This document shows, piece after piece, positions 13,929-64,000 of a stretch of 64,000 nt of DNA. The position numbers and the translations under genes were made by a program. The notes below the pieces were generated by a model, which ran no database searches, had not been told where the DNA came from, and saw only the letters and a program-made list of their open reading frames with translations. Every line of letters starts with the position of its first letter. Positions within the stretch are counted from its first letter, which is position 1. The stretch is taken from the IMG/VR virus record IMGVR_UViG_3300042890_006166, positions 62,001 through 126,000 of that record; one strand, given 5' to 3'. Origin of the DNA: a virus.

Positions 13929-13931
13929 TTT

Positions 13932-14531: not shown

Positions 14532-14533
14532 AT

Positions 14534-18405: not shown

Positions 18406-19073
18406 TGGCAAATCCTCGATTTTATTTAGGGCAGGTCGTAGACATTAACGATCCCAGAAAATCCGGTCGAGCACGGATTAGAGTTTTTGGACTTTTTGAT
18501 GGACTAGACCACGAAGATATTCCATGGGCTAGTCAAATAAGTGGACTTTCTTTCGGAAAGGGCGGATCTGGAACAATCTCCATCCCTAAGTTGGGTGCCA
18601 TAGTTGTGGTTCAGTTTGATGGACAGAATTACTATAAAATGAACTATTATGGTGAGAAGGACTATGCCCAAGACATGTTGGCAGAGATAGCCGATTCCTA
18701 CGAGGGAGCACAGGTTATCGTGTATGACACAGAAGCTGAACCTGGACCGTTGACTTTATTTTACACGAAAAAGAAAGGAGCTGTATTCTCTTTAGGAGAT
18801 GCAAAGATCCAGTTTGATACACAAGACGGAGGTCAGCTCAGAGTTATTATTGAGATGGGCCAGGATCAAATCCGGATGGAAAATAACAAAGTAATCATTA
18901 ACTCTAATAACATCGAGTTGGGAGAAGCTGCTATTGAGGCAGTCATTAAAGGAAACACTTTCCAAACCTATTTTAATTCCCATACTCATGTTGGTAATTT
19001 GGGTGCACCCACTTCACCTCCTGTCGTTCCATCTACTCCCAATCATTTGTCTACTGTGAGTAAAACTAGATAA
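18405..19073 (+). CDS. gp5/VgrG-like OB-fold baseplate spike protein (no lysozyme domain)
   Basis: A 222-residue protein. Residues about 5-85 form an OB-fold of the gp5/baseplate-V type: YLGQVVDINDPRKSGRARIRV, quoted in part as GQVVDINDPRKSGRARIRV, then IPWASQISG, a Gly/Ser turn and IPKLGAIVVVQFD. The C-terminal part is beta-rich (NKVIINSNNIELG), probably a short beta-prism, and ends in FNSHTHVGNLGAPTSPP. That His-Thr-His plus Pro-rich tail is known from spike proteins, where the His residues can bind a metal ion. T4 gp5 has a lysozyme domain between these parts; it is absent here, so cell-wall cleavage must come from elsewhere. It starts on the stop codon of the previous gene and is followed after two bases by the 941-residue gene. 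Confidence 0.75.
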   Translation: MANPRFYLGQVVDINDPRKSGRARIRVFGLFDGLDHEDIPWASQISGLSFGKGGSGTISIPKLGAIVVVQFDGQNYYKMNYYGEKDYAQDMLAEIADSYEGAQVIVYDTEAEPGPLTLFYTKKKGAVFSLGDAKIQFDTQDGGQLRVIIEMGQDQIRMENNKVIINSNNIELGEAAIEAVIKGNTFQTYFNSHTHVGNLGAPTSPPVVPSTPNHLSTVSKTR

Positions 19074-19075
19074 GC

Positions 19076-26999: not shown

Positions 27000-28730
27000 A
27001 TGGCCACTAATATTTTCCAGAAAAATAATATTCTGATCCGGGGTCTGTTAAATGACACCTACAATTTTCTTCAAAGAACCTACAATCAAACCAGAAATGT
27101 GTTTACTGTGGCTTCTGCCTGGGGACAAATTTTATTTGTCTTGGAAAATATTTCCCAGCTAATTTTGTATTTTATTGAAGACTCAATCACAGAATTAAAC
27201 ATCTATCAGGCCAGCAGGGATTATTCCATTAAAAGCTTGGCCAGAATAGCAGGTTATGATCCTGCCAGAGGTATGGCTGCTCAAGGAGAAATTGCTGTTA
27301 CCTGGAATTTGAGAGAGTCTGATGTGGGCGGGGGAGCCATAATTTTGTCCGGTAGACCTAAAATTCAGTGTGAACAAAATGGGTTGATTTATACTTTGCT
27401 TCTGAATGGACCTTCAGTTAAAGTTCCTTTGAATCGAGGAGCAACATTCAATTTTAAAATGGTTCAAGGTGCTTTTCAAACATCCACCTTCACTGGAACA
27501 GGAGCTGCTTTACAAAGTTACAATGTTGTTTCAAAATCCGGTACTCTGATTGATCAATTTTATGTTGACATTTCCGTTAACGACGTTCCATGGAAAATGT
27601 ATTTTTCTCTTTATGATATTCCATTAAACGGCAAAGGATATTTGGTTAAATCTGGAATTTCTGAGGGAATTGATATTTATTTCGGAAACGGAAATTTCGG
27701 TCAACCCCCTTTGAGAGGAACTATTATAAAAGCCGAATATCTCCAAACCAATGGGTTCAGCGGCAATATTGCTTCAAGAAAGGATCTTCAGTTGACCTAT
27801 AGGTTTATGGATACTGGTACAGATTTATTTGGAAAAGAAGTTAATTTAAATAATTACCTTACAATTTTAGGAGTACTTGATCCTTCCTTCGGAAGTGATC
27901 CAGAACCAATTGAGCTAACCCGTCTGGTCGCTCCTAAAACTTCTCGTGCTTTCGTGTTTGCAAATTCCGAAAATTATGAAATCTATCTACAGAGATTTAA
28001 TATTTTTTCACAAATTCAGGCATTTTCAACTTTTGGTGATGACGTTCTAGATGATGATAATGTTGTGTATCTTTTTCTGGTACCGGATGTAACAATCAAC
28101 ATTCTAAGTGGGCAAGATTACTTTGATGTTCCTGCAGAAAGTTTTGTTCTAACTACCGCTCAAAAGCTTTCAATTTTAAATTTAATAGAAGATTCTGGCC
28201 AGATGATTGCCACGACAGTTGTAAAGATTTTAGATCCTGAAATTCAAAACTTCGTTGGAAATTTGGTTTTGTCTATTTTTGAAGGTTATGATCCTGAAAT
28301 AATTAAGGATAAGGCAAGAACTTCTATATCGGAATATTTTATTAATTTGAAGAGAAGAGATAAAATTCCCAAATCTGATATTATCGCCATTGTTGAGGCT
28401 ATTGATGGTGTGGATTCCGTTTCTTTTTATTTCGTTGGACAAGCAAATGAAGAATATCACAAAACGGTAGACAATCTACCTAACGCCAGTGCTGAACAAA
28501 AGAATAGACAAATTGGTTTAAATTCTTTTGGAGATATTGTAATTAACTCCGATGAATTAGTTTTAATTCGAGGAGGATGGTCAGATCGTTATGGTACCTT
28601 TTATGAAGTAGGTATTGTTCCAGGCAAACCTTCGGCATTGAACATTGATATTTCTTCAATCGTTCCGAAAAATTTGTCAGCACAATTGAATTCTGAACAA
28701 AGAGCAAGAATTATAGCCCAAAATCAATAG
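27000..28730 (+). CDS. Baseplate wedge protein, gp6/J-like
   Basis: A 576-residue protein (T4 gp6 is 660). It follows gp25 directly and has the gp6/baseplate-J layout: an N-terminal helical region (NDTYNFLQRTYNQTRNVF, then FVLENISQLILYFIED), the core IKSLARIAGYDPARGM (about residues 75-90) and a beta-rich central domain. The central domain includes the SGISEGIDIYFGNGNFGQPP region (about 216-236), characteristic of the family, and a C-terminal alpha/beta part (KARTSISEYFINLKRRDKIP, IVEAIDGVDSVSFYFVG). In T4, gp6 dimers form the inner ring of the baseplate and drive wedge joining. The following two genes start within a few bases, so wedge parts are made together. Confidence 0.83.
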   Translation: MATNIFQKNNILIRGLLNDTYNFLQRTYNQTRNVFTVASAWGQILFVLENISQLILYFIEDSITELNIYQASRDYSIKSLARIAGYDPARGMAAQGEIAVTWNLRESDVGGGAIILSGRPKIQCEQNGLIYTLLLNGPSVKVPLNRGATFNFKMVQGAFQTSTFTGTGAALQSYNVVSKSGTLIDQFYVDISVNDVPWKMYFSLYDIPLNGKGYLVKSGISEGIDIYFGNGNFGQPPLRGTIIKAEYLQTNGFSGNIASRKDLQLTYRFMDTGTDLFGKEVNLNNYLTILGVLDPSFGSDPEPIELTRLVAPKTSRAFVFANSENYEIYLQRFNIFSQIQAFSTFGDDVLDDDNVVYLFLVPDVTINILSGQDYFDVPAESFVLTTAQKLSILNLIEDSGQMIATTVVKILDPEIQNFVGNLVLSIFEGYDPEIIKDKARTSISEYFINLKRRDKIPKSDIIAIVEAIDGVDSVSFYFVGQANEEYHKTVDNLPNASAEQKNRQIGLNSFGDIVINSDELVLIRGGWSDRYGTFYEVGIVPGKPSALNIDISSIVPKNLSAQLNSEQRARIIAQNQ

Positions 28731-36300: not shown

Positions 36301-37659
36301 AATTCAGAATTTTCTTTGATTAATGCAAAAGTAATAGGAATGACGGGAGCTGGTTCTTTTGCTGATTCTCTTGTTAGTCTTCCCAACTCCCAAACTTTTC
36401 TAACCTCTGGAACATCCACCCATGATGTTAATTTTGGTGGAATTACCATTTCTCATCCATCCGGAGCAACTGGATTTTCTTATCCTTGGGTTTTGCTTTC
36501 TAATTCAAATTTTGAAGGAATAACTGGTGCATTTGTACGTAACTATCAAATAAATAATTCTAACTATCACACAGGTTGGCACAAAACAATTAGAGCTTTT
36601 AATAGCACATCGACCTACTACACCGCTTTCTTGTTTACAGGAGATGCTCTTATAGAAGGCGGAGGAACTAACGAAATTGTATCTGGGGTTTCTGGAGCAC
36701 TTCAGGGTGGGATCTTATCCATTTCACCAGGAGGAAAAATTCAATCTGAATCAAATTTCGAAATTCTTCCTTCTTCTTACGAAGATGTTTATGTTACAAG
36801 AATTACAGAAGTTCAGGGATTAAGAGGAAATGGTGATTATTATCTTTCGGTGAATTATCCTTTACAACCTGGAGTAACAGGAAGCGGAAATTTAATTCAA
36901 AAAAGAAACATATCTGGAACATTTATCGATTCTTTTTCCACCTTTGAACCTGGGCAAACCGGAACACAAAATGAATTATTTTTCACAGTTTCTCCTGATT
37001 TGAATATTTTCATAACAGGAACAAATCAAGGTTTGACTGGCCCGACGGGTTTACCATATCCCTCTTCTAATTTTTCACCGTTCGTTTCTTTCCTTGAAAG
37101 CTATAAACCCCCATTGGGAGTAGACGAAGGAAATATCATATCCCGTGCGGGATCGGGAGCGTGGACTTGGGTAGATGTTCACAATTCGGACAACAGTCTT
37201 TATGTTCCAATGTTATCCACAGTTTTCTTTTCTAATTATGCCTCTGAAATTTTTGGAAAACAAAACAACCGATGGATTCTAAGCAATGCCAGAACTGGGG
37301 AGGTAATTTTAGATGTTAAATTTACACCATATTTTATTTACACATTTACAGAGTCAGATTATTATACCATACAAAATACTGTCGAGGATTCGGCTGGAAA
37401 TGTTTACCAAGTTTCAAAACCTGCCTTTGTGTCTGTGGTTAATCAATCTATACCAAGAGCCAATGATCCCAACCCATTGCTCGTTAATTCTGCAGACTAC
37501 GGATACGTTGCTCCTGGTAGAGACTTCGAATCCCAATATGCAGATTTAGACAGACAAATTTTAGAAGACCAAATTATAATTAGATCTCAGAATGTTTCAA
37601 ATTATGGGTCTGGTCTTAAATTAACAGACGATCCAAATTCGACTTTTATAGGAAACTAA
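33334..37659 (+). CDS. Giant adhesin/tail-fibre-like protein with Thr/Pro linker and propeller-like repeats
   Basis: A 1441-residue protein. A compact N-terminal domain (residues 1-88) is followed by a Thr/Pro/Ser/Gln linker (about 90-223) built from a 14-residue tandem repeat. Next comes a region with propeller-type blades: VYSVDFDENGNYWLGTEDGL (about 450-469) and an earlier WCVGRNLTVFSDGVWSVYDS. These resemble the sensor-propeller repeats common in Bacteroidota. The rest is beta-rich, Gly/Ser/Thr/Asn-laden and typical of surface-binding virion proteins, with many TG(A/P/V)TG turns. No signal peptide, so it is assembled on the virion, not secreted. It follows the wedge genes and precedes phoH on the other strand. 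A host-recognition or outer baseplate role is inferred. Confidence 0.7.
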   Translation: MPVRITGNQTSVCDLWAGTTIIWAQEPTFNGITGGTQISEDEQGLSVFNGGNSDWAFKEYPGVTGDKTIIINISTVGIVNQDPIDCSAPEPPTPSPSLSPTPTPTLTSTPTQTPTPTTTQTSTPTTTSTNTPTQTSTPTTTSTNTPTQTSTPTTTSTNTPTQTSTPTTTPTNTPTQTPTPTSSATPTQTPTPTTTPTNTPTQTPTPTSSATPTQTPTPSSTPFADPTVLFAGVYTPNESVWCVGRNLTVFSDGVWSVYDSSNSAVPSNSPWYLDTRSISIDTNDTKWVGCAVSSATSQVLIFSVEGPNAATGSSWNLSEFNLGSPNWEVPLIYASPFGQEILAVISPLNGGVPTGATCNPGPTGGYLWKYNKITEKWQEVSPGYVWPTIHDIKAKGEGGTDWSYYIATDEGLQIINSGTLIPQNLQDGTIYLPELKKISKFNSSLNSERVYSVDFDENGNYWLGTEDGLTYWDGQKFYNWAVPVVLPVTKVVSVPYGHVFFRCGNPQSNPPTTNGFYHFNGVNFTHYDSSNSGLPSDIVVDFDVATTKSIENSITTYPYNLWIISGNNIVLFDYVLPHVYASSNFEGTTGWNFLSYTPSPTGATSSQVLLPKVQKYNWVYPSWQGYDNADLALNHPGMDPRNLFLTTNFKSIANGEAGNQNYWNWGQTTTYEQQIQAQEIPDYSWMIGITSSPSTSQTVVVTSTTRYGNLNVLGGYSNEQFINFGPSSNTEESYIFENPNFSGATGEVGFLTFYTDKGQVQGVIPFRGGRTRILDVKPSFDGNSLIVAGKFTSYLEAGEFVWNTRFPNAADLTITGVTGPTGGPIGFSNLSTPGITGSFDYPWILNGPTSGTGAYIPDPGLLYDEPAYFIAEVDFDLGDQCSYGGIDFATQSLQSRFNLKKFRYFPAIDSANNPISGPTGFYPIGIGVSGGTELSISQNSIRLMSNFIGGYSTLKNDYSNEGDLPVSPEFIFSPIQNNTYLPSAFVLEMNSEFSLINAKVIGMTGAGSFADSLVSLPNSQTFLTSGTSTHDVNFGGITISHPSGATGFSYPWVLLSNSNFEGITGAFVRNYQINNSNYHTGWHKTIRAFNSTSTYYTAFLFTGDALIEGGGTNEIVSGVSGALQGGILSISPGGKIQSESNFEILPSSYEDVYVTRITEVQGLRGNGDYYLSVNYPLQPGVTGSGNLIQKRNISGTFIDSFSTFEPGQTGTQNELFFTVSPDLNIFITGTNQGLTGPTGLPYPSSNFSPFVSFLESYKPPLGVDEGNIISRAGSGAWTWVDVHNSDNSLYVPMLSTVFFSNYASEIFGKQNNRWILSNARTGEVILDVKFTPYFIYTFTESDYYTIQNTVEDSAGNVYQVSKPAFVSVVNQSIPRANDPNPLLVNSADYGYVAPGRDFESQYADLDRQILEDQIIIRSQNVSNYGSGLKLTDDPNSTFIGN
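33600..34005 (+). repeat. Thr/Pro-coding tandem repeat (42-bp and 78-bp units)
   Basis: In-frame repeat within the gene at 33334. Four near-identical 42-bp units start at 33691, 33733, 33775 and 33817 (coding QTSTPTTTSTNTPT). After these, two copies of a longer unit of about 78 bp follow, mixing the same words. Near identity of the 42-bp copies, including third positions, points to recent slippage or unequal exchange. Confidence 0.88.
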
Positions 37660-45116: not shown

Positions 45117-48100
45117 ATGAGCACACCAATCTCAACACCCATCCCTGGACCAATCTGTGGACCTGGCCCCAAACTATTTGACTCTAACTCATCTTTTGGT
45201 GTTCTAAGAACAAATCCAAAAATAACAGGAAATGTAAAAATTACTTTGGATTCCGAAGGAGAAGTTTGGTTAAATTCTATGGATGCAAATCCTACTTTGA
45301 GTGATCAGAAATACAAAAAATATCGGGTAAGCGGAGAACTTTCTTATGGAAAAGATATTCAAAAATTTTTCTCAGGAGGAAAAATCCAACGAATTTCTTT
45401 AAATCCTGATGTTATTTTCGAAGTTGGTAAATTTACCGACGGGGAAAATAAACCGGTAGAGAATTTTGCATCCCAATATGATTTTTTTTATGGATCTGGA
45501 GCTTCAACTTTAGTCGATAGAAATTATGCTGAAAATTTCAAATTTTTTCAGCCTTTATGGTTGAAAGATGAATTACCTGATTTTTTTGTCGTTTTTAAAG
45601 TTCCCGAACCTTTAAGCTACCCATATTCTACAAATCAAACACAAATTGTAGACGGTTCTCAATACAAGGTTATACAAGAAATTTCATCAACAGAAACCTT
45701 TTCGATTACTTATGGAGTTGACTTATTTGGGAATCCCATTGTTTATTCTGCCGGACAATTTTTTACCGGAAACACAGTTTATTCATCTTATAATATAATT
45801 TCTGGTACTGGTAAAGTAGTTCTAATGGATGAGTTGTTATTCCAGCCTCAAGTGGATGACGTTGATTCTTATTTCAATTCTAAAATACTTCCTTATGCTT
45901 CTGTTATTTCTACTTTTGATTTAAGGTCAAATACGAAGATCGGGAAATACATTCGATCAATTGTAAACAATCCCTCTTTTTCACAATCACCAATCGACTT
46001 TTCTTATCAACTAAATGCCTATACATACTTCAACGGAATAGATATTCAAACCGGTGCCTTCACGAAGAAAGGTGAGCTTTTGTATGATTTTTTAATTTCA
46101 AACGAATCAACACCTCAAATCGATTTCGAAAATTATGTGACTGAAGGTTTTTCTAGAAATGGAATCATAGCTCCGAATCTTCTTAATTTAGAATTTCTTT
46201 TCGATGATCCAGATTCAAACCTTTACACCATAAACAGATATTTCGGTGCTTACGTGTCGAAAAACTGTTTGGGTAGTTTTAAAATGAATGGAAATTTCTT
46301 TTATACCTATAGGGATTCAGCTGGTAACAATAACCTACCAAAGCCATCTTTGAACAATGTTGGATTTTATAATTCTACTCAAAATAATTTTCAAAGTAGC
46401 ACTACCGGAGTTAGACTTTATTATGAAGGTGCCACTGGATGGATTCCAGGATCTTATGATGTTAATGTGGCAGATCCACAAAAATTATTTTATATCACTG
46501 ATAAGTTTGATAGATTTTACAGTTTGAAAAGATTTGAAAATTACAATTCAAACACCAATTCCTGGATAGACAACACCCCGGTAGAGGCACAATTTGGACC
46601 CTTCACTAACGGAACATTTTCAACCGGTGCTACTTCTGGGTGGAAAACTGGTAATCTAGTAATTCCAAATCGTAGCGTTAATCTTTTAGATTTCACTGGT
46701 CCAGGGGAAAAAATAGGAGGATATAGCGGGATCTTACCAACTTCTGAAGGACATGCTAACATCGACATAGAATTTCTCAAGGTCTCTGATCCAAATAAAC
46801 CTGTAACTTTTAAAGTGATTTGGCCTGGAGGTAGTCAGGGAAATCTGATAGAAAAATATGATCTAATTCAATCTGGAAAATTGGGAGGTACTGTTTTGGG
46901 ATGGAAAGCTGGTTCTTCTTATAACTCCGGAAATATCAATTACTTCAATTTGTCACAGGGAACTACAACTGATGTTGCCTTTTCATTTTGCTCTTGTGTT
47001 AACAATATAAGTTCAATTGTTTGGAATTCTGCCAATTCGAAAAATTCTTCTATAATTAGGGCTAAAAATCCTGGACCTAATTCCAACACACAATTCAAAA
47101 TTGGCGTTTTCTCCGATTATTCTTCTTTTGAAAATTCGTATGTAGGAATTTGGTCCAACACCTCTTCTTATAATATCGGAGACATTGTTTCTTTCTTCGA
47201 TTCCTACTTTCAAGCTTTGAATCCAATTAGTACACCCGCTTTAGGAAATCTAAATCCTGAACCAATTTCGAATCTTGACTGGTTACCTTATCAAACTTTC
47301 ACTGAAGAAGGTTTTTTGAAAATTGCTGGTTTAGATGCCTCAGATTTATCTGGAATTGTTAATTTTAGAGGTGGTTCTAAAGAAATTAAATCTAGAGTAA
47401 TTTTCTCTTCTGAAGAAAAAGATAAGATTGTCCCTGGTACATGGATAGAGGTAGAAAGTGGGCGTGGTGTAACCGGTTCTGTTTCAATGATAACTGAAAT
47501 AACACCATATGTTGAGGATCCTATCTATGCCAATGGATCGGATTTGATTTCTGGGTTCAGAGGTTATGGTGAACTTCTGATTGCTCACCTCCAAGACAAG
47601 AATGCTGTTATCAATTTGGGATCTGATGGTAATTTCAATTTATTTGAAATTGTAAGTTTAGAAAGCGGTGTTTTTTCATTTTTTGATTTGAAAGATTTTG
47701 ATTTTGATTTTTTATCTTCAACATATGGGATGACCCCAACCCCAGAATTTCACAGATATTTTCAATTAATTCCAGGTCAATCTGGTCAAATTATAAATGG
47801 GGTGAAATATTTGGTGAGACAGGGACAGATTAGATACGAAACTACTAATTATGTGTCTGGAGAATCTTTCATAGGAACCACAACAGATTTTTTCACTGAC
47901 GCTGGTTCTTCGACAACGGGATTTACTGCTGTTGTCCTTCCAGCTATTTTTACACAGGTTGGATGGGTGAATGATACTTATCCATACAACATGTCACAGA
48001 TACAGGCAGAACAAAATTTGAATTCTTTTATTGGTTTCTATGGAATACAATCAATAACTAGTGTGAATCCAATTCCAAATCAAAACAACAAGGAAGAAAT

Positions 48101-50734: not shown

Positions 50735-52192
50735 ATGCCAACACTAAACATTCTGACCCTAAATCAGGGTGATACACAAGAAGATATTCGCAATAAAGTA
50801 AATGCGAATTTTGACTCTTTGGTGTTAAATGGAGGTGGACCTCAAGGGGTTCAAGGCCCTCAAGGGGATCAAGGACCAGTTGGATCTGCTGGATCTCAAG
50901 GGGATCCTGGTGAACAAGGTACCAGAGGAACTAAGTGGTTTGTTGAACCCTCCCAGCCATCTGGTGGATCTGGAGACGAAATATTAGTGGGTGATTATTG
51001 GGTTGACACACTTAACGACAACTCAATTTATCAATTTGATAATTCAGGTTGGGTATCAACTGGTTACACCTTGCAAACTTCTGGGATTTTCTCCACTCTT
51101 TCTGGAATCACCGGTCCAACAGCTGGTGCAAATGCTATTGTGTTAAACACGCCATTTCCAAATTTATACACTACGGTTTTATCTGATGCTATTTCTACAC
51201 AATCTACTGCCAATCCTTCTTATTCAAAGTTATTAATTGCAACTGATTCGGCGAATGATTTTCCATTATTGGAATTTGCTAAAACAAATGCTGTAGGGAT
51301 TGGAACTCCATCGGATTACACAAGACATCCTCAATTCAGATGGATGAATCCAAACCAGCAGAATTATAATCTTTTATTTTCTGTTCCTCAAGATTCTATG
51401 CAATTTAATTCTGGGGGAAATATGTCAATACAAAGTACCGGCGGGGATATTCAAATTACTGCCCCACAAGATATCGAGATCGATTCACAATCTCAAATTT
51501 TGATGTACGCTGCGAATCAAATTTTGTTACAGAGCGAACAGATTGTTTTTTCGTCCAATAATTTCCAGATGAGTTCCAGTGCAATGTCAATTTTTACCCA
51601 GGTTTCGGTGAATGCAAACACAACTAATCCTGCTTTACAGATATCAAATTCTGGAACAGGAGGTGGACTTCAAGTATTTTCTAATTCAACCAGTTCCTCT
51701 ACTAATATAGTTGATTTTCAGTCAGGCGGAGAAACTAAATTTTCTATTAATGGGCAGGGAAAGGTTTATATGAAACAAACTGCCAGTTCTGTTAAATCAA
51801 TCAGTTCATCTTCTGACTTAACCATATCTTTTACCCAATATTGGTTGCTGAATACATCAACAGTTAACCACGGAAACACTGTTCTTTTTGTTCCTCCTGT
51901 TTCTGGTGGTTCCAAAGGGTTGATGATCTCAATGGGAAGTTTTTCGGGTAGCTGGTCAAATTATCTACAAAATTACGAGTCTATTCAGCTTTCGATTTCA
52001 GTAGTGGACCTCGGTAACGCTATCAGATATTTAGCATTAGGAGATTCTAGCAACGCAATAATTGGTAGCGCTGTTGATTTTGGGTCTGGGACGGAACAAA
52101 GATTTATCAACTTAACTATTATTAGAAACAACTCAGCTACTAATTATCTTGTTTTTTACAATACATGTGGGGGACTTTGTGGTAAATTTTAA
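50735..52192 (+). CDS. Tail-fibre protein with short collagen-like segment
   Basis: A 485-residue protein. Residues about 10-30 (GDTQEDIRNKVNANFDSLVL) form an attachment-like motif shared with the next gene and loosely with that at 38415. Then come about eleven Gly-X-Y triplets with classic Pro/Gln content (GPQGVQGPQGDQGPVGSAG and on, about residues 34-65). A small Trp-rich domain (WFVEPSQPSGG, GDYWVDTLND, GWVSTG) follows, and a Ser/Asn/Gln-rich beta shaft occupies most of the rest. A C-terminal beta domain has VNHGNTVLFVPP and ends NTCGGLCGKF. This is the usual plan of a trimeric tail fibre: anchor, collagen neck, shaft and tip. It has no signal peptide. The next gene is a diverged paralogue. 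Confidence 0.72.
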   Translation: MPTLNILTLNQGDTQEDIRNKVNANFDSLVLNGGGPQGVQGPQGDQGPVGSAGSQGDPGEQGTRGTKWFVEPSQPSGGSGDEILVGDYWVDTLNDNSIYQFDNSGWVSTGYTLQTSGIFSTLSGITGPTAGANAIVLNTPFPNLYTTVLSDAISTQSTANPSYSKLLIATDSANDFPLLEFAKTNAVGIGTPSDYTRHPQFRWMNPNQQNYNLLFSVPQDSMQFNSGGNMSIQSTGGDIQITAPQDIEIDSQSQILMYAANQILLQSEQIVFSSNNFQMSSSAMSIFTQVSVNANTTNPALQISNSGTGGGLQVFSNSTSSSTNIVDFQSGGETKFSINGQGKVYMKQTASSVKSISSSSDLTISFTQYWLLNTSTVNHGNTVLFVPPVSGGSKGLMISMGSFSGSWSNYLQNYESIQLSISVVDLGNAIRYLALGDSSNAIIGSAVDFGSGTEQRFINLTIIRNNSATNYLVFYNTCGGLCGKF

Positions 52193-52207: not shown

Positions 52208-53806
52208 ATGTTTAACACTAAATTCATTTTACCTGGTGATGATAAGGATCAAATTATCTCCAAAATAAATTTCAATTTTCAACAAATTTTATTCAATGGG
52301 GTTGGATATGATGGACCAATTGGAAATGTAGGACCTACAGGAATTAGCGGAGAAGTTGGAGCAGATGGAATATTTGGAGCCAACGGAAACCCCGCTACCC
52401 AATGGTTTTTTTCTGGCATAGAGCCTTCTCCTTCAGATTCAAGAAACGGTGATATCTGGGTAAATGAAGGACCTACTGGAGGGAGGGATATATTTGTTTT
52501 CGGACCTACCTCGTGGATTTATTCAGGAGAAACTCTTTTAGACGATTCAATTTTTTCTTTGGTTTTAGGAATAAGCGGTCCAGGACAATCTTCAGACAAA
52601 AATGCAATAGAAATATCAAATTATCCGGAAACCACAACTTTGGTTCTTTCTGACTCTCAATCTACTTTGAATGACGCCAATCCAAATTTGGCTAAATTAT
52701 TAATTGCAACAGACGCAAGTCAGCAAAAATACCCATCTTTAACTTTTGATAAAACTTTTTATTCCGGATCGAATCCTCCTTCTTTTTTGTGGGCAGGTAC
52801 CGGTCCATCTTATGATTTCGTTTTTTCTTCCCCGCAAGAATTAAAAATCACTAGCGGGGCTACTGCCTCTTTCGGGCCAACAGGATCTTTATCCAGCATT
52901 TATTTTTTTCCTAATCAGTCTCTCAGATTAAACTCTGCACAAAACCCTGGACAAAATATAAATTTAAATGCTCCAATTTCTGGTGGATATCTTTTGGCTT
53001 CAACCGCTAGCACGATCCAACTAACATCAAATAACATAAATTTAACCCCACAGTCTTTATCTTTTCAATTTTCGGCGGGAACCGGTAGTTCTGTTAGTGG
53101 AACGGTAAACACTAACCCAATTCTTCGAATTACTAATTCATCCAGTGCTGGGTCTGGAGTGAAAGTAAATCTAATAGGTTCATCTACCGATCCAATTGTA
53201 AGATTCACAAACAATCTTTCTTATAGGGTTTTCGAATCCAGGCCTGATGGATTAAATGTGGTAGGAGTTTCTGGACCATCTGGTTCAGCTTTTGGAAATT
53301 TTGTTAAAATGGTATCTTTTGCCAACAAAGTAAATACAAGTTCAACTTTCATTAGAAATAGTTTTACAAACAATCTAATGTCGTTACCACTAACAGAACA
53401 ATCTTCTGATTTAATATCGATTCAACCAGATCTAACAGGTCCAATATCATCTGATAATAGAATAGACAGAATTTATTTACAGATCGAAAATTTTTCAGGT
53501 ATTTGGAGAGGACCAATTGCAGGAGGAAGAACCTTCGATATTTTTTTGAACAACAATACTTTGTGTTTTGGTGGTATTCGAAGTGTTTATCCGGGGCCTA
53601 GTGGTTTTACTTCAACATCCGTCCAAATTTTGGATACTGGAACTGGGATTAATGAAGGGTGTAGACACATAAGACTCCAATTTTTATCCGAAGTTCAAAT
53701 TGGCTACACTGCCTTTACAACATACGCAACCACTTCCGCTCCCCGTTGTGGATTTATCCCATATTCTATAACTAGAACACCATCATCTCCAACTTCTCCA
53801 ATTTAA
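52208..53806 (+). CDS. Tail-fibre protein, diverged paralogue of the preceding gene
   Basis: A 532-residue protein with the same architecture as the gene at 50735. It has a DDKDQIISKINFNFQQILFNG anchor (quoted in part: DQIISKINFNFQQILFNG), about ten Gly-X-Y triplets (GPIGNVGPTGISGEVGADG), then WFFSGIEPSPSDSRNGDIWV, which aligns with the Trp-rich domain of its neighbour. A Ser/Asn-rich shaft and a different C-terminal domain (VSFANKVNTSSTF, IEGC-like Cys residues and GFIPYS) follow. The shared start with a changed tip suggests duplication followed by diversification of receptor specificity. It starts 16 bases after the previous stop and ends three bases before the next gene. Confidence 0.72.
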   Translation: MFNTKFILPGDDKDQIISKINFNFQQILFNGVGYDGPIGNVGPTGISGEVGADGIFGANGNPATQWFFSGIEPSPSDSRNGDIWVNEGPTGGRDIFVFGPTSWIYSGETLLDDSIFSLVLGISGPGQSSDKNAIEISNYPETTTLVLSDSQSTLNDANPNLAKLLIATDASQQKYPSLTFDKTFYSGSNPPSFLWAGTGPSYDFVFSSPQELKITSGATASFGPTGSLSSIYFFPNQSLRLNSAQNPGQNINLNAPISGGYLLASTASTIQLTSNNINLTPQSLSFQFSAGTGSSVSGTVNTNPILRITNSSSAGSGVKVNLIGSSTDPIVRFTNNLSYRVFESRPDGLNVVGVSGPSGSAFGNFVKMVSFANKVNTSSTFIRNSFTNNLMSLPLTEQSSDLISIQPDLTGPISSDNRIDRIYLQIENFSGIWRGPIAGGRTFDIFLNNNTLCFGGIRSVYPGPSGFTSTSVQILDTGTGINEGCRHIRLQFLSEVQIGYTAFTTYATTSAPRCGFIPYSITRTPSSPTSPI

Positions 53807-57453: not shown

Positions 57454-58014
57454 ATGGCAATTTTAAACGCAAGATCCAATTCATTTTACTTCAACTTTCC
57501 CAAAGGGTTTTTTCCACCTAGTGTAGAAAATCGATGGATTGATTATTTAAAAAAACAGCCAACCCCTTACGACACGATCACCTCCTTCATGAATTCCAGT
57601 ATTCAGTCGGTGGGGTTCCCTACTATGAGTACAAATCTGGTATCACAGACGAAGAACTTGGGAAAACAAATTAACTATCAAAGCGCAACCCCAGTCCAAG
57701 ATTTATTTACCAGAGATTTCGATGTTTCGTTTAGAATAGGTGAGGGATTTGTAAATTATTTTATCATGTTGGAAACTGTTTTAGATAAACTAGCTTTCCA
57801 GAATGATGACCTATTTACTCCCGTTTTACCTCTTAGAATTTTGAACAACGAAGGAGGAGTAATTGTCTCGGTTGTATTTAAAGAAGTCAACCTAACGGGG
57901 ATAAACGGAATCACCTTGAATTACACCCAAAATGCACCTAGTGTGAACACATTCACTGTTTCTTTTAAATGTAACTTCATGGAGTTAGACATGGAAGTAC
58001 AGAAAAGAAACTAG
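57454..58014 (+). CDS. Tail-tube-like protein
   Basis: A 186-residue protein (T4 gp19 is 163) with the pattern of contractile-tail tube or tube-initiator proteins. The front reads YFNFPKGFFPPSVENRWIDY, then PTPYDTITSFMNSSIQSVGF and P-T-M-S-T. A middle part has RDFDVSFRIGEGFVNYFIML (about residues 89-108), and the end is beta-rich (GGVIVSVVFKEVNLTGINGI and TFTVSFKCNFMELDM). The alternation of beta strands around one helix matches the tube fold. In contractile tails this protein stacks as hexamers to form the channel through which DNA passes. A GATATATAAG element overlaps the end of the gene. Whether it is the main tube or a cap protein cannot be decided here. Confidence 0.55.
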   Translation: MAILNARSNSFYFNFPKGFFPPSVENRWIDYLKKQPTPYDTITSFMNSSIQSVGFPTMSTNLVSQTKNLGKQINYQSATPVQDLFTRDFDVSFRIGEGFVNYFIMLETVLDKLAFQNDDLFTPVLPLRILNNEGGVIVSVVFKEVNLTGINGITLNYTQNAPSVNTFTVSFKCNFMELDMEVQKRN

Positions 58015-58302: not shown

Positions 58303-58632
58303 ATGTTAGGCCTCATCGAAATAAAATACGGCAAGGATAGTGCAGGTAAAATTCTTTCCTTAGCTATCAATCCGTCTTCTGTAGGATCTATTTCCACGGG
58401 AGCTACCGGCTTTTTCATTTTTCTAGACTCTGTTAACACAACAGTTGTCCAACCTAATATCAACAATTTTTCAACTAAGCTGTCCTTCTTTGGGACATCT
58501 TTTGCTGATGCCCAAGCCATGGAGCAAGCCTGGCTGGCAGCCACCGACAATCTTTTAATAGAGGCCCAAATTGTGACTTTGGATTTTCAATCACAGGGTT
58601 ATATTTTTTCACAAACAATAGTTCAGGCGTAG
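58303..58632 (+). CDS. Hypothetical small protein preceding the giant Gly-X-Y gene
   Basis: A 109-residue beta-rich protein starting at ATG 58303: IEIKYGKDSAGKILSLAINP, then GSISTGATGFFIFLDSVNT and a helical segment DAQAMEQAWLAATDNLL. No signal peptide, membrane segment or known motif. Its stop codon (TAG) is directly followed by the GTG start of the giant gene, so translation of the two is probably coupled. It could be a chaperone or partner for that protein; this is inference from position. Confidence 0.62.
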   Translation: MLGLIEIKYGKDSAGKILSLAINPSSVGSISTGATGFFIFLDSVNTTVVQPNINNFSTKLSFFGTSFADAQAMEQAWLAATDNLLIEAQIVTLDFQSQGYIFSQTIVQA

Positions 58633-61600
58633 GTGAAAAAGATTGTAATACAATATATTTCTGGTTCACAAACACTGGCCACTTCTTTCGAGTTAGACAC
58701 ACTCTCGGAAATTATTGCGGTCGAAAACGGGGTTTACCTTTACTTCACTACTGTTTACAATTCTGGACCTCTTACAGCTTCTAGATTTTATTATGGAACT
58801 GTAGTTTATATTACTAAAACCGGTCAAGGATATGACCTATATCAACAATGTATTCAGGCTATAGGTGATGTAGTTACTGATCCAATCTCTAACGAAGGAA
58901 TTTTAGATTTTACCTGGGACCCAGGTGTAACCGTGATTTTCTCTAACATGAGTGGGGATTCTAGCGGTGGTGGAACCGGAGGATCTAGCTCGGGAAGTTC
59001 TGGTACTTCAGGCAGCTCTGGTACTTCTGGATCTACCGGAACCAGTGGATCTTCTGGAACAACAGGAAGTTCTGGTACTTCTGGAACCAGTGGATCATCA
59101 GGAACTTCTGGATCTGATGGTACAAGAGGAACCTCTGGAACTTCTGGCTCATCGGGATCCTCTGGAACTACTGGATCTTCTGGAACATCTGGTTCATCTG
59201 GAACTTCTGGATCAGATGGAACATCCGGAACTTCTGGCTCATCGGGATCCTCTGGAACTACTGGATCTTCTGGAACATCTGGTTCATCTGGAACTTCTGG
59301 ATCAGATGGAACATCCGGAACTTCTGGCTCATCTGGATCATCCGGAACTACTGGTTCTTCAGGAACATCTGGTTCATCTGGAACTTCTGGATCAGATGGA
59401 ACATCCGGAACTTCTGGCTCATCTGGATCATCCGGAACTACTGGTTCTTCAGGAACATCAGGTTCATCTGGAACTTCTGGATCAGATGGAACCTCTGGAA
59501 CTTCTGGCTCATCTGGATCATCCGGAACTACTGGTTCTTCAGGTACATCAGGTTCTTCTGGAACTTCTGGATCAGATGGAACCTCTGGAACTTCTGGCTC
59601 ATCGGGATCCTCTGGAACTACTGGTTCTTCAGGTACATCAGGTTCATCGGGTACTTCTGGTTCTGATGGGACTGCTGGAACATCGGGATCCTCCGGAACT
59701 ACTGGATCTTCTGGAACATCTGGTTCATCTGGAACTTCTGGATCAGATGGGACTGCTGGAACATCGGGATCCTCTGGAACTACTGGATCCTCTGGATCAT
59801 CTGGATCATCTGGAACTTCTGGATCAGATGGAACATCCGGAACTTCTGGCTCTTCCGGATCCTCTGGAACTACTGGTTCTTCAGGTACATCAGGTTCATC
59901 GGGAACTTCTGGATCAGATGGGACTTCAGGAACTTCTGGTTCATCGGGATCCTCTGGAACTACTGGTTCTTCAGGTACATCAGGAACTTCTGGATCAGAT
60001 GGAACCTCTGGAACTTCTGGCTCATCGGGATCCTCTGGAACTACTGGTTCTTCAGGTACATCAGGAACTTCTGGATCAGATGGAACCTCTGGAACTTCTG
60101 GCTCATCGGGATCCTCTGGAACTACTGGTTCTTCAGGTACATCAGGTTCATCGGGTACTTCTGGTTCTGATGGGACTGCTGGAACATCGGGATCCTCCGG
60201 AACTACTGGATCTTCTGGAACATCTGGTTCATCTGGAACTTCTGGATCAGATGGGACTGCTGGAACATCGGGATCCTCTGGAACTACCGGATCTTCGGGT
60301 ACATCAGGATCATCAGGGACTTCTGGATCAGATGGAACATCCGGAACTTCTGGCTCATCGGGATCATCTGGAACTAGTGGATCTTCTGGAACATCTGGTT
60401 CATCTGGAACTTCTGGATCAGATGGAACTTCCGGAACTTCTGGTTCTTCCGGATCCTCCGGTACTACCGGATCTTCTGGTTCATCTGGTTCATCTGGAAC
60501 TTCTGGATCAGATGGGACTGCTGGAACATCGGGATCCTCTGGAACTAGTGGATCTTCTGGAACATCTGGTTCATCTGGAACTTCTGGATCAGATGGGACT
60601 GCTGGAACATCGGGATCCTCTGGAACTACTGGATCCTCTGGAACATCTGGTTCATCTGGAACTTCTGGATCAGATGGGACTGCTGGAACATCGGGATCTT
60701 CTGGAACTACTGGTTCTTCTGGAACATCTGGTTCATCTGGAACTTCTGGATCAGATGGAACATCCGGAACTTCTGGCTCATCGGGATCATCTGGAACTAG
60801 TGGATCTTCTGGAACATCTGGTTCATCTGGAACTTCTGGATCAGATGGGACTGCTGGAACATCGGGATCCTCTGGAACTACTGGATCCTCTGGAACATCT
60901 GGTTCATCTGGAACTTCTGGATCAGATGGGACTGCTGGAACATCGGGATCTTCTGGAACTACCGGTTCTTCTGGAACATCTGGTTCATCTGGAACTTCTG
61001 GATCAGATGGGACTGCTGGAACATCGGGATCCTCTGGAACTTCTGGTTTAGATGGAACTTTTGGAACTTCTGGAACTTCTGGTTTCGACGGAACTTCTGG
61101 AACTTCTGGTTCTGACGGTACTTCTGGAACATCGGGTTCTTCTGGAACTTCTGGTTTAGATGGAACTTCTGGAACTTCTGGTTCTGACGGTACCTCCGGG
61201 ACATCGGGTTCTTCTGGAACTACTGGTTCTTCTGGAACTTCTGGATTCAATGGAACCTCTGGAACTTCTGGTCTAGATGGGACTTTTGGAACTTCAGGAA
61301 CCTCTGGATCCGATGGAACAGCAGGGACTTCTGGAACCGATGGAACATCAGGAACATCGGGTTCTTCTGGAACAACTGGATCATCTGGTACTTCTGGTTT
61401 GAATGGAACCTTTGGAACCTCCGGATCTTCAGGTACCACCGGAACTTCTGGAACTTCGGGTTCGTCCGGTACTACCGGAACATCGGGTTCCTCTGGAACA
61501 TCTGGTATAAATGGTTCTTTTGGAACCAGCGGAACTTCTGGGTCAAGTGGGACCAGCGGGGCCGGAATCATGAATTATTATGCTTCTTATAGTGATTCTA

Positions 61601-64000
61601 CTACTCAAACAGTAACAGCGGAAGATACTCCAACCATAATAACTTACAATACGGTTGAAATAGAAAATGGATTTTCTTTGGTCAGTAATTCAAGGGTTAC
61701 TCCAACTTATTCTGGGATTTATGAATTTTCTTTTTCTCCACAAGTTCAAAAATCACAAGGAACAAATTGCCTGATGAATTTTTGGCTGAGAAAAAATGGA
61801 ACAGACATTATTAGAACAGATTCATACATTGACCTAGTTTCAAATTCTGTCATCCAACTTCCTTTTGTAAGCATAATAGTTGAGCTTTTACAGGGAGATT
61901 ATTTGGAATTAATATTTGCGGCATCCACTGAATTTGGCGAGATTGTTGCCTTTCCTGCTATTACTACTCCCTATGTTGCTCCAGCAGCTCCTTCTGTAAT
62001 TGTTAATATTAAAAATATAGGAGTAGCAGCAGCTGCCTATACATCAACCTCAGGAACAAGCGGTACTTCAGGTTTAAATGGTACTTCTGGAACTTCTGGA
62101 TCTTCTGGGACTTCTGGATCATCTGGTACCTCTGGTGGAACAGGAACATCCGGAACTTCAGGTTCTTCTGGATCATCTGGAACATCCGGGTTTTCTGGTT
62201 CATCTGGGACTTCTGGATCTTCCGGAACTTCTGGAGGAACAGGTTCATCTGGTACTTCTGGATCTTCCGGAACCTCCGGTGGAGCAGGTTCTTCTGGAAC
62301 TTCTGGTTCTTCAGGAACCTCGGGCTCATCCGGATCAAGTGGATCCTCCGGATCATCGGGATCTTCCGGAACCTCCGGTGGAGCAGGTTCTTCCGGAACT
62401 TCTGGTTCTTCTGGAACTTCTGGTTCTTCTGGATCAAGTGGATCATCTGGATCGTCGGGTTCTTCTGGAACTTCCGGAGGAACAGGTTCTTCCGGAACCT
62501 CAGGTTCTTCTGGATCAAGTGGATCCTCTGGATCATCAGGTTCTTCCGGAACATCCGGAGGATCAGGTTCTTCTGGAACCTCAGGTTCATCCGGATCGAG
62601 TGGATCCTCTGGATCATCAGGTTCTTCCGGAACATCCGGAGGTGCAGGTTCTTCCGGGACTTCTGGCTCTTCAGGAACTTCTGGATCAAGTGGATCTTCT
62701 GGATCATCAGGTTCTTCGGGTACTTCCGGGGGAGCAGGTTCTTCCGGGACTTCTGGCTCTTCAGGAACTTCAGGTTCTTCTGGATCAAGTGGATCATCTG
62801 GATCATCGGGTTCTTCGGGTACTTCCGGGGGAGCAGGTTCTTCCGGGACTTCTGGCTCTTCAGGAACTTCAGGTTCTTCTGGATCAAGTGGATCATCTGG
62901 ATCATCGGGTTCTTCTGGAACATCTGGTGGAACAGGTTCTTCCGGAACCTCAGGTTCTTCTGGATCAAGTGGATCCTCTGGATCATCGGGTTCTTCTGGA
63001 ACCTCTGGAGGAGCAGGTTCTTCTGGAACCTCGGGTTCATCCGGATCGAGTGGATCATCTGGATCATCAGGTTCTTCCGGAACATCCGGAGGTGCAGGTT
63101 CTTCCGGAACTTCAGGTTCATCCGGATCAAGTGGATCTTCTGGATCAAGTGGATCCTCTGGATCATCAGGTTCTTCCGGAACATCCGGAGGTGCAGGTTC
63201 TTCTGGAACTTCAGGTTCATCCGGATCAAGTGGATCTTCTGGATCAAGTGGATCCTCTGGATCATCAGGTTCTTCCGGAACTTCTGGAGGAACAGGTTCT
63301 TCTGGAACTTCTGGATCAAGTGGATCTTCTGGATCAAGTGGATCCTCTGGATCATCAGGTTCTTCTGGAACTTCTGGAGGAACAGGTTCTTCTGGAACTT
63401 CTGGATCAAGTGGATCCTCTGGATCATCAGGTTCTTCCGGAACATCCGGAGGATCGGGTTCTTCTGGAACCTCAGGTTCATCCGGATCGAGTGGATCCTC
63501 TGGATCATCAGGTTCTTCCGGAACATCCGGAGGTGCAGGTTCTTCTGGAACCTCAGGTTCATCCGGATCAAGTGGATCTTCTGGATCGTCGGGTACCTCC
63601 GGAGGATCAGGTTCTTCTGGAACATCAGGTTCATCCGGATCAAGTGGATCCTCTGGATCATCAGGTTCTTCCGGAACATCCGGAGGTGCAGGTTCTTCTG
63701 GAACTTCTGGTTCTTCTGGATCAAGTGGATCTTCTGGATCATCAGGTTCTTCCGGAACCTCTGGAGGAACAGGTTCTTCTGGAACTTCAGGTTCATCCGG
63801 ATCAAGTGGATCTTCTGGATCAAGTGGATCCTCTGGATCATCAGGTTCTTCCGGAACTTCTGGAGGAACAGGTTCTTCTGGAACTTCTGGATCAAGTGGA
63901 TCCTCTGGATCATCAGGTTCTTCCGGAACATCCGGAGGATCGGGTTCTTCTGGAACCTCAGGTTCATCCGGATCGAGTGGATCCTCTGGATCGTCTGGAT
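58633..64000 (+). CDS. Giant proline-free collagen-like protein, 3'-truncated by window edge
   Basis: A single open frame from GTG 58633, adjacent to the previous TAG, to the last base: at least 1789 codons with no stop. Residues 1-120 form a small beta-rich domain (FELDTLSEIIAVENGVYLYF). From residue 121 (58993) to 61557 there are 285 Gly-X-Y triplets in perfect phase, chiefly GTS, GSS, GTT and GSD, with no Pro seen. Residues about 977-1135 form a globular domain with SGIYEFSFSPQVQK, NFWLRKNGTDI and LLQGDYLELIFAAST, the pattern of C1q/TNF-like jelly rolls. From 62053 onward at least 216 further triplets, now GSS-rich with GG(A/T/S) markers, continue past the window. Synonymous codons vary while Gly phase holds, so protein-level selection is likely. 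A trimeric fibre or whisker on the virion is inferred. An ATG at 58948 is a weaker alternative start. Confidence 0.85.
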   Translation, partial: MKKIVIQYISGSQTLATSFELDTLSEIIAVENGVYLYFTTVYNSGPLTASRFYYGTVVYITKTGQGYDLYQQCIQAIGDVVTDPISNEGILDFTWDPGVTVIFSNMSGDSSGGGTGGSSSGSSGTSGSSGTSGSTGTSGSSGTTGSSGTSGTSGSSGTSGSDGTRGTSGTSGSSGSSGTTGSSGTSGSSGTSGSDGTSGTSGSSGSSGTTGSSGTSGSSGTSGSDGTSGTSGSSGSSGTTGSSGTSGSSGTSGSDGTSGTSGSSGSSGTTGSSGTSGSSGTSGSDGTSGTSGSSGSSGTTGSSGTSGSSGTSGSDGTSGTSGSSGSSGTTGSSGTSGSSGTSGSDGTAGTSGSSGTTGSSGTSGSSGTSGSDGTAGTSGSSGTTGSSGSSGSSGTSGSDGTSGTSGSSGSSGTTGSSGTSGSSGTSGSDGTSGTSGSSGSSGTTGSSGTSGTSGSDGTSGTSGSSGSSGTTGSSGTSGTSGSDGTSGTSGSSGSSGTTGSSGTSGSSGTSGSDGTAGTSGSSGTTGSSGTSGSSGTSGSDGTAGTSGSSGTTGSSGTSGSSGTSGSDGTSGTSGSSGSSGTSGSSGTSGSSGTSGSDGTSGTSGSSGSSGTTGSSGSSGSSGTSGSDGTAGTSGSSGTSGSSGTSGSSGTSGSDGTAGTSGSSGTTGSSGTSGSSGTSGSDGTAGTSGSSGTTGSSGTSGSSGTSGSDGTSGTSGSSGSSGTSGSSGTSGSSGTSGSDGTAGTSGSSGTTGSSGTSGSSGTSGSDGTAGTSGSSGTTGSSGTSGSSGTSGSDGTAGTSGSSGTSGLDGTFGTSGTSGFDGTSGTSGSDGTSGTSGSSGTSGLDGTSGTSGSDGTSGTSGSSGTTGSSGTSGFNGTSGTSGLDGTFGTSGTSGSDGTAGTSGTDGTSGTSGSSGTTGSSGTSGLNGTFGTSGSSGTTGTSGTSGSSGTTGTSGSSGTSGINGSFGTSGTSGSSGTSGAGIMNYYASYSDSTTQTVTAEDTPTIITYNTVEIENGFSLVSNSRVTPTYSGIYEFSFSPQVQKSQGTNCLMNFWLRKNGTDIIRTDSYIDLVSNSVIQLPFVSIIVELLQGDYLELIFAASTEFGEIVAFPAITTPYVAPAAPSVIVNIKNIGVAAAAYTSTSGTSGTSGLNGTSGTSGSSGTSGSSGTSGGTGTSGTSGSSGSSGTSGFSGSSGTSGSSGTSGGTGSSGTSGSSGTSGGAGSSGTSGSSGTSGSSGSSGSSGSSGSSGTSGGAGSSGTSGSSGTSGSSGSSGSSGSSGSSGTSGGTGSSGTSGSSGSSGSSGSSGSSGTSGGSGSSGTSGSSGSSGSSGSSGSSGTSGGAGSSGTSGSSGTSGSSGSSGSSGSSGTSGGAGSSGTSGSSGTSGSSGSSGSSGSSGSSGTSGGAGSSGTSGSSGTSGSSGSSGSSGSSGSSGTSGGTGSSGTSGSSGSSGSSGSSGSSGTSGGAGSSGTSGSSGSSGSSGSSGSSGTSGGAGSSGTSGSSGSSGSSGSSGSSGSSGSSGTSGGAGSSGTSGSSGSSGSSGSSGSSGSSGSSGTSGGTGSSGTSGSSGSSGSSGSSGSSGSSGTSGGTGSSGTSGSSGSSGSSGSSGTSGGSGSSGTSGSSGSSGSSGSSGSSGTSGGAGSSGTSGSSGSSGSSGSSGTSGGSGSSGTSGSSGSSGSSGSSGSSGTSGGAGSSGTSGSSGSSGSSGSSGSSGTSGGTGSSGTSGSSGSSGSSGSSGSSGSSGSSGTSGGTGSSGTSGSSGSSGSSGSSGTSGGSGSSGTSGSSGSSGSSGSSG
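58993..61557 (+). repeat. Gly-X-Y coding repeat, block 1 (285 triplets, 81/90-bp higher-order unit)
   Basis: The base unit is 9 bp with Gly at each first codon. A higher-order unit marked by ATCAGATGG (coding SDG) recurs at 59211, 59301, 59391, 59481 and 59571 (90 bp apart), then shifts to 81 or 90 bp steps (59742, 59823, 59913, 59994, 60075). Unit size therefore changes by whole triplets and never breaks the Gly phase. Confidence 0.92.
62053..64000 (+). repeat. Gly-X-Y coding repeat, block 2 (at least 216 triplets)
   Basis: Same 9-bp base unit, but GSS dominates and each larger unit carries one GGA, GGT or GGS triplet. The markers are found at 62278, 62377, 62476, 62557, 62638 and 62728, so steps are 99, 99, 81, 81 and 90 bp. 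Copies are highly similar and the block runs off the window. Confidence 0.92.

Follow-up and report, generated by a model that had tools for sequence, protein, structure and literature searches.

The 64,000-nucleotide stretch analysed here, hereafter the window, corresponds to bases 62001-126000 of the 126,669-base virus record IMGVR_UViG_3300042890_006166; the whole record was also searched. The window ends inside a giant gene (58633..63999, plus strand) coding for a collagen-like protein, and our analysis confirms that the long Gly-X-Y blocks of this protein are devoid of proline. The record also carries a homologue of the TibC/AAH-type serine O-heptosyltransferases, a family of enzymes that is associated with proline-free Gly-X-Y fibres across viral records. 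We favour, with moderate confidence, the interpretation that the giant gene encodes a trimeric tail fibre whose proline-free blocks are stabilised by TibC/AAH-type O-heptosylation of serines, carried out by the phage's own enzyme.

The giant Gly-X-Y gene and its surroundings

The GTG start codon of the giant frame abuts the TAG stop of the 109-amino acid (aa) gene located directly upstream (58303..58632, plus strand). As stated in the initial annotation, the frame extends over at least 1789 residues: 1789 codons are open in the window, and the frame continues to the last base of the record to reach 2012 residues without a single stop. Block 1 (58993..61566, plus strand) consists of 286 triplets, among which GTS (116), GSS (94), GSD (26) and GTT (24), while block 2 (62053..63996, plus strand) comprises 216 triplets in the window. 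The resulting count of 502 agrees with the minimum of 501 first reported, and rises to 576 triplets at the end of the record (286 and 290, each block being uninterrupted). The claimed absence of proline also holds, since none was found at the 1152 X and Y positions of the record-wide frame, and the 11 prolines of the 2012-residue protein are all located outside both blocks. The blocks had been described as nearly all Thr, Ser and Asp, which is accurate for block 1 but not for block 2, where Asp is missing and 31 GG(A/T/S) triplets occur instead, at intervals. Over the 576 triplets, position X is occupied by Ser (305), Thr (230) and Gly (31), and position Y by Ser (474), Thr (36), Asp (31) and Ala (25). 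The glycines at X are all in block 2, and a single Gly at Y was found in block 1.

The Pfam Collagen family (PF01391) matches the frame with an E-value of 1.6e-182, and consequently the Gly-X-Y pattern does not result from chance. The protein has the long uninterrupted Gly-X-Y stretches of PF01391 collagen-like proteins (286 and 290 triplets) and lacks their enrichment in proline or hydroxyproline at X or Y (0/1152). Two fibre genes provide a contrast within the same genome and, as previously noted, do use proline: the gene at 50735..52192 (plus strand) contains a short stretch of 11 triplets with 4 prolines, and the gene at 52208..53806 (plus strand) a stretch of 10 triplets with 3 prolines.

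In both blocks, positions 1 and 2 of the Gly codons are invariant and variation is confined to position 3 (1.17-1.33 bits), indicating that selection acts on the protein. The giant gene is probably not an assembly accident because another IMG/VR record (L004) is identical to it across all 4548 shared bases. A further record (L005) is identical at 466 of 466 aligned codons and is 30 codons shorter, in two gap runs that reflect either in-frame changes in array length or a collapse of the array during assembly. All three contigs end within the repeats of the giant gene, so that 2012 residues is a lower bound. Long shadow frames run along the repeats, on the minus strand at 58854-61571 and 62009-64000 and on the plus strand at 58952-61051 (905, 663 and 699 aa, respectively), and these frames, either antisense to the repeats or shifted relative to their frame, could be mistaken for genes by automatic annotation.

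A proline-free composition is of a known kind and not unique to this gene, since a DNA pattern coding GTSGSSGTSGSSGTSG scanned in IMG/VR detected at least 120 stretches and since a GTS/GSS region without proline, of 38-63 repeats, has been published for Burkholderia Bucl3 (PMC4565658). Among the matches listed, 80 of these stretches were used; their loci have a median of 160 triplets and a maximum of 1046, and the blocks of the main frame are proline-free in 52 of the 80. The length observed here is at the high end.

The N-terminal non-collagen domain (aa 1-120; 58633..58992, plus strand) is, from its position, presumed to be the virion attachment end. It has no Pfam or PHROG match and no relatives in the phage collection; viral contigs yielded two 99% relatives and one 19-residue match. 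Between the two blocks, the AlphaFold2 model of aa 977-1138 (61567..62052, plus strand) is a jelly roll, the fold of BclA, C1q and TNF ligands, with a predicted local distance difference test (pLDDT) of 70.8 and a predicted template modelling score (pTM) of 0.67. Foldseek returned 253 PDB matches at E≤0.001 for this model, the best being the C-terminal domain of F-BclA (8.8e-7) followed by BclA, both from Bacillus, with the central spike of phage phi812, portal-tail proteins of cyanophage A4, TNF ligands and C1q domains lower down. A sequence-only search of the PDB with this domain gave nothing significant (best E 0.52-0.61), nor was there any Pfam match. Two other viral contigs encode a 63-66% identical domain that is likewise found between proline-free Gly-X-Y blocks; one of them (L141) codes for a complete protein of about 2700 aa that is organised as an N domain, 430 triplets, this C1q/TNF-like domain, 266 triplets and a C domain. 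The domains of BclA, C1q and TNF assemble as trimers; the C1q/TNF-like fold predicted between the two blocks supports a trimer here as well, and this domain would presumably act as its trimerisation and nucleation point.

The source of the record is a large aquatic bacterial virus. Genes matching terminase, portal, major head protein, head protease, tail sheath, baseplate wedge and a tail-tube-like protein identify it, by sequence similarity, as a contractile-tailed phage. The tail-tube-like gene (57454..58014, plus strand; weak match to phrog_45, E 1e-4) is located three genes upstream of the giant gene, and the baseplate wedge subunit is encoded at 27000..28730 (plus strand; phrog_219, E 1e-24). 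Relatives of the tail-tube-like protein were found in uncultured huge phages (462-735 kb) and in Prevotella Lak, Tenacibaculum, Sphingomonas and Flavobacterium phages; the baseplate wedge protein has the same phage relatives plus wider ones, and the host may be a member of the Bacteroidota. Since the giant gene follows tail genes, and with a fibre-type trimer domain predicted in its product, this product most probably forms a trimeric tail fibre, whose place on the virion we infer from this context. PHROG tail-fibre families also match the giant gene, a match driven by its repeats. In seven cousin records near the tail-tube genes and in an immuto region, the only stretch of at least 7 triplets had 8 triplets and contained proline.

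Other giant fibres are encoded by the same record. A second giant fibre gene (L003:4023-11999), complete in L007:2849-11392, codes for 2847 residues with 561 uninterrupted proline-free triplets, followed by NTTGxxNVAxG repeats, which we take to be YadA-head-like, and by a Peptidase_S74 chaperone at the end. The first 4017 bases of the record are the 3' part of another proline-free collagen-like frame, consisting of 380 triplets and a C-terminal domain with relatives in cyanophages and in tail-fibre-like proteins of Flavobacterium phages; the model of this domain (pLDDT 39) was unusable. This frame may possibly provide the window gene with its 3' end, for a total of at least 3351 residues if the two are joined. 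Circularity of the record was considered as a proof of this connection and rejected. The breaks of two records fall, at differing positions, within one and the same pair of repeat genes, and given that the cousins include huge phages of 462-735 kb, both records could be fragments bounded by the two repeat genes.

Two other repeats were observed in the window. A 69-base tandem repeat (17590-18011; about 4.7 copies, 75% match) lies in a 786-aa frame (16045-18405), and a Thr/Pro-rich tandem repeat of mucin-like composition (33610-33995), a possible additional O-glycosylation target, lies near the start of a 1441-aa frame (33334-37659).

The O-heptosyltransferase and its association with proline-free fibres

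At record bases 17985-19163, outside the window and about 5.4 kb after the gene of the 2847-aa second giant fibre, lies a gene coding for a homologue of TibC/AAH-type Ser O-heptosyltransferases. Its product scores 266.7 bits against TIGR04414 ("autotransporter strand-loop-strand O-heptosyltransferase"; 266.3 bits on a second scoring), above the family cut-off of 200, and matches the TibC structure 4rap in the PDB with an E-value of 5e-54. Residues D117, C340, C343, C359 and C371 align with D110, C339, C342, C358 and C370 of TibC, and these five columns are near-invariant across 60 aligned sequences, the phage's own included. We take D110 to be the catalytic base of TibC. A crystal of the D110A variant has been described, and TibC reportedly acts on Ser but leaves Thr unmodified (PMC4358343). 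The phage enzyme matches no PHROG family. Two GT4-type glycosyltransferase genes are found beside it (record bases 13870-15024 and 16927-17985), and a heptose-7-phosphate kinase-like gene (rfaE domain I) is located at record bases 45321-46316, with 311 bits for a cut-off of 345. No member of the GT2 family PF00535 was detected in the record.

Starting from the fibres, we searched for TIGR04414 in the whole records behind the proline-free-pattern loci, a doubly found record being counted once, and behind loci retrieved with a proline-type control pattern (GPX-GPX-GPX-GPX-GP; 80 of at least 120 stretches used), as well as in 47 records retrieved with a random 15-mer. The enzyme was found in 26 of 77 proline-free-pattern records, versus 1 of 80 proline-pattern records and none of the 47 random records; the sole positive proline-pattern record also has a 91-triplet proline-free block. 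The proportions for proline-free versus proline records were 1/19 vs 0/41 below 20 kb, 4/26 vs 0/16 between 20 and 40 kb, 10/20 vs 0/19 between 40 and 80 kb, and 11/12 vs 1/4 above 80 kb (Fisher p of 1.1e-8 for all records and 2.3e-6 for those of at least 40 kb). Once look-alike loci were merged, the enzyme remained in 21 of 60 proline-free records and in 16 of the 25 of at least 40 kb. It was found in none of 10 cousin loci.

Starting from the enzyme, we found 59 viral loci encoding relatives of the phage O-heptosyltransferase. A Ser/Thr-rich Gly-X-Y block is present in the flank, within up to 10 kb, in 32 of them (14 of 27 clusters) versus none of the 47 random loci, the latter being shorter in total (386 kb vs 903 kb). 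Such blocks accompany 13 of 18 close and 19 of 41 distant relatives, at a median distance of 4.9 kb and on the same strand in 24 of the 32 cases. Because the proline-free pattern forces Ser at Y within its own five triplets, the comparison of Ser with Thr rests on these 59 enzyme loci, which were chosen regardless of Gly-X-Y: position Y is occupied by Ser in 77.7% and Thr in 5.3% of their triplets, versus 7.0% and 29.1%, respectively, in the proline set.

The phage collection contains the enzyme in four records, three of them distinct by length and position. In Microcystis phage Mel-JY01, deposited with its host, about 5 kb separate the enzyme domain from a block of 149 triplets (Ser/Thr 0.84, Pro 0.01), and a 735-kb phage has blocks of 19 and 10 triplets within 20 kb. 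In Mel-JY01 (L276, 1-2298), the Gly-X-Y frame is coded on the plus strand, while the hypothetical proteins annotated on the minus strand at 1-651 and 739-2298 are probably shadow frames; the enzyme domain sits in a protein annotated as "methyltransferase FkbM".

A single-sequence search of bacterial genomes with the phage enzyme found no homologue, and an alignment-based repeat gave 304 relatives, the best 80 of which form our bacterial set. The five closest (L402-L406) come from metagenome-assembled genomes that are gammaproteobacterial by title, Acidiferrobacterales being counted, on our assumption, as such. They are located within about 1.2 kb of genes for short Gly-X-Y proteins (126-226 aa), with blocks that are proline-free except for one containing 2 prolines, and with N-termini that we take to carry a lipobox-like motif. 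These short proteins end in GSS/GTS tails, mostly with acidic C-termini, beside the TibC-type enzymes, and possibly constitute a heptosylated cell-surface protein system. Another bacterial contig, L458, resembles a phage fibre gene and has proline in one block. Overall, a Ser/Thr-rich block was found in 6 of the best 80 of 304 bacterial relatives versus 32 of 59 viral loci; the other 74 have none, and 2 of these have other Gly-X-Y sequences. A FastTree split separates the 59 viral, the five Gly-X-Y-linked and three other bacterial rows (67) from 72 bacterial rows, with a support of 92 (not starred), in a tree that long branches make provisional.

The proposed fibre and alternative explanations

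In the fibre that we propose, the N-terminal domain would anchor the protein to the tail or baseplate, and the C1q/TNF-like domain would keep three chains in register. With the collagen-type rise of 0.286 nm per residue, the Gly-X-Y blocks (858 and at least 870 residues) would wind as triple helices into two thin rods, each measuring at least about 245 nm. The phage O-heptosyltransferase would add heptose to Ser, chiefly at Y, of the phage's own fibres, using adenosine diphosphate (ADP)-heptose mainly provided by a Gram-negative host. The two adjoining GT4-type glycosyltransferases may extend the sugar, and the glycan could give the rod hydration, stiffness, solubility and protection. The blocks would do without proline because they are stabilised in another way, Y being the position where hydroxyproline and galactosyl-Thr stabilise known collagens. 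The broader proposition, that Ser O-heptosylation at Y by a phage TibC-like enzyme replaces proline and hydroxyproline in a widespread type of phage fibre, seems to us evenly balanced between true and false. Such a collagen chemistry was not found described in the literature searched: in the open full-text literature, no title or abstract opening among the matches listed connects phage fibres or collagen-like proteins with an enzyme of the TibC type. Bacteria may use it on short cell-surface Gly-X-Y proteins.

The initial annotation had predicted a very long fibre stabilised otherwise than by proline, perhaps through Thr glycosylation. Analogy and gene context support the very long fibre, and the complete lack of proline in the blocks makes a need for other stabilisation likely. 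The choice of Thr, on the other hand, does not agree with the register of the triplets. In the known collagens with glycosylated Thr, the sugar-bearing Thr is located at Y, and since Thr sits here at X (230 of 576 positions, with 36 of 576 at Y), glycosylated Thr fits less well; furthermore, the phage enzyme is a homologue of enzymes reported to act on Ser, not Thr.

Several observations weigh against heptosylation of the fibre. TibA and AIDA-I, the substrates known for the enzyme family, are autotransporters and not proteins of the Gly-X-Y type, and the enzyme gene of this record lies close to the second giant gene rather than to that of the window. No adenylyltransferase (rfaE domain II) was found in the record, and matches were below cut-off in three of six other records searched; the heptose-kinase-like gene, present in 4 of 26 enzyme-positive versus 1 of 24 enzyme-negative records, is not generally linked. 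The enzyme is missing from 51 of the 77 proline-free-pattern records (40 under 40 kb and 11 longer), and within the fibre loci alone was detected in 6 of 80 proline-free, none of 80 proline and none of 47 random loci. Conversely, 27 of the 59 enzyme loci have no Ser/Thr-rich block in their flank, and a 636-kb phage with the enzyme has no block within 20 kb. The proline control is itself imperfect, with a guanine-cytosine (GC) content of 0.48 vs 0.38 and 16 of 80 loci without a block of 10 triplets; restricted to GC below 0.45 and at least 40 kb, the comparison is small (enzyme in 13 of 21 proline-free vs 1 of 9 proline records). Some proline-free phage fibres carry Thr at Y, a mirrored pattern having given 21 stretches, although X has more Thr than Y in 14 of 22 frames of these loci, and the enzyme occurs in 1 of the 21. 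Finally, GT4-like genes were found in 50 of 59 enzyme loci, and in 4 of 80 proline-free versus none of 80 proline fibre loci. They accompany both the enzyme and the fibre, so that a broader sugar cluster could underlie the link between the two.

The abundance of GT4-like genes in enzyme loci thereby favours the main alternative, which we consider a possible but clearly less probable explanation. According to it, the gene encodes a real, unmodified collagen-like tail fibre held together by its length, Ser/Thr hydration, a low habitat temperature and trimer caps, while the sugar cluster acts on lipopolysaccharide (LPS), O-antigen or another protein and shares the host-recognition region. Pelagimyophage glycosyltransferases and rfaE, many of them in the tail-fibre region, have indeed been read as LPS-related (PMC7029224), and of 13 Bucl collagen-like regions, all except four were predicted to melt at 20-35 C unmodified, Bucl3 (GTS/GSS) not being one of the four exceptions (PMC4565658). 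However, the enzyme belongs to a family of protein Ser O-heptosyltransferases, its association separates proline-free from proline-type fibres, and its closest bacterial homologues adjoin short Gly-X-Y proteins without or nearly without proline, three points that argue against this alternative.

It is unlikely that the blocks are devoid of triple helix and connect folded domains as a disordered, flexible brush or linker of Gly, Ser and Thr. Pure GSS/GTS sequences are free of proline, poor in charges and, according to host-guest values, of low predicted helix propensity, and the arrays differ in length among records, in frame, all of which would suit a brush. Yet Gly occupies all 576 third positions while the third base of its codons varies, a regularity beyond what a flexible linker requires, Thr is very unequally distributed between X and Y, and a trimer domain of the C1q/TNF type is predicted between the blocks. 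Still less credible is the folding of the blocks as a single-chain polyglycine II/polyproline II (PPII) bundle, as in Salmonella phage S16 gp38 or the snow flea antifreeze protein: Gly-rich phage adhesins with PPII bundles do exist, but such bundles are tied to GGX motifs (PMC13243192), whereas Gly occupies X in only 31 of the 576 triplets here, and hundreds of near-identical triplets offer no obvious turn positions. An assembly artefact or a neutral repeat expansion without functional protein, suggested by contigs ending in a repeat, where assemblers fail, can be all but dismissed in view of the identical sequence in another record, the 2012 codons without stops, the codon-position pattern of protein selection and the relative of about 2700 aa whose gene is complete within its contig.

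Heptosylation of the fibre would account, in a testable way, for the existence of a collagen-like rod with hundreds of triplets and no proline, and our data add a correlation across viral records between proline-free Ser/Thr fibres and a Ser O-heptosyltransferase. If this explanation is true, phage virions gain a defined surface glycan, the sugar genes of tail-fibre regions so far taken as LPS-modifying acquire another reading, and an enzyme-modifiable collagen-like material may be at hand. Since Mel-JY01, a named phage with a recorded host, carries both parts, this reading is testable now.

Comparison with known systems

Like BclA and F-BclA of Bacillus spores, the phage protein appears to join a C1q/TNF-like trimer domain, predicted here through Foldseek, to a collagen-like rod. 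BclA is made of GPT repeats with proline at X and sugar on Thr, unlike the phage fibre, which has Thr at X, Ser at Y and no proline. BclA is glycosylated (PMC8968730). The association of a Gly-X-Y rod with trimerisation domains is also found in EPclA and EPclB of E. coli prophages, proposed to be side-tail fibres, and a triple helix was shown for EPclA (PMC3368898). The 47-kDa chain of EPclA nevertheless contains charged residues and much proline at X, and carries no sugar when produced as a recombinant protein (PMC3368898), whereas the protein described here has no proline, few charges and at least 576 triplets, with sugar-enzyme genes in the same record. Bucl3 and other GTS-repeat proteins of Burkholderia are similar in having a GTS/GSS region without proline. 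Bucl3 differs by its 38-63 repeats and its prediction as a membrane or surface protein, and the passages concerning it mention no link with a glycosyltransferase (PMC4565658). As for the enzyme, it resembles the TibC/AAH heptosyltransferases (PMC4358343) in scoring above the family cut-off and in having the catalytic Asp and the four iron-finger Cys, but it is phage-encoded and scores 267 bits versus 477 for a Paraburkholderia bannensis member. On our tree it groups with the viral homologues and the Gly-X-Y-linked bacterial ones (split support 92, not starred).

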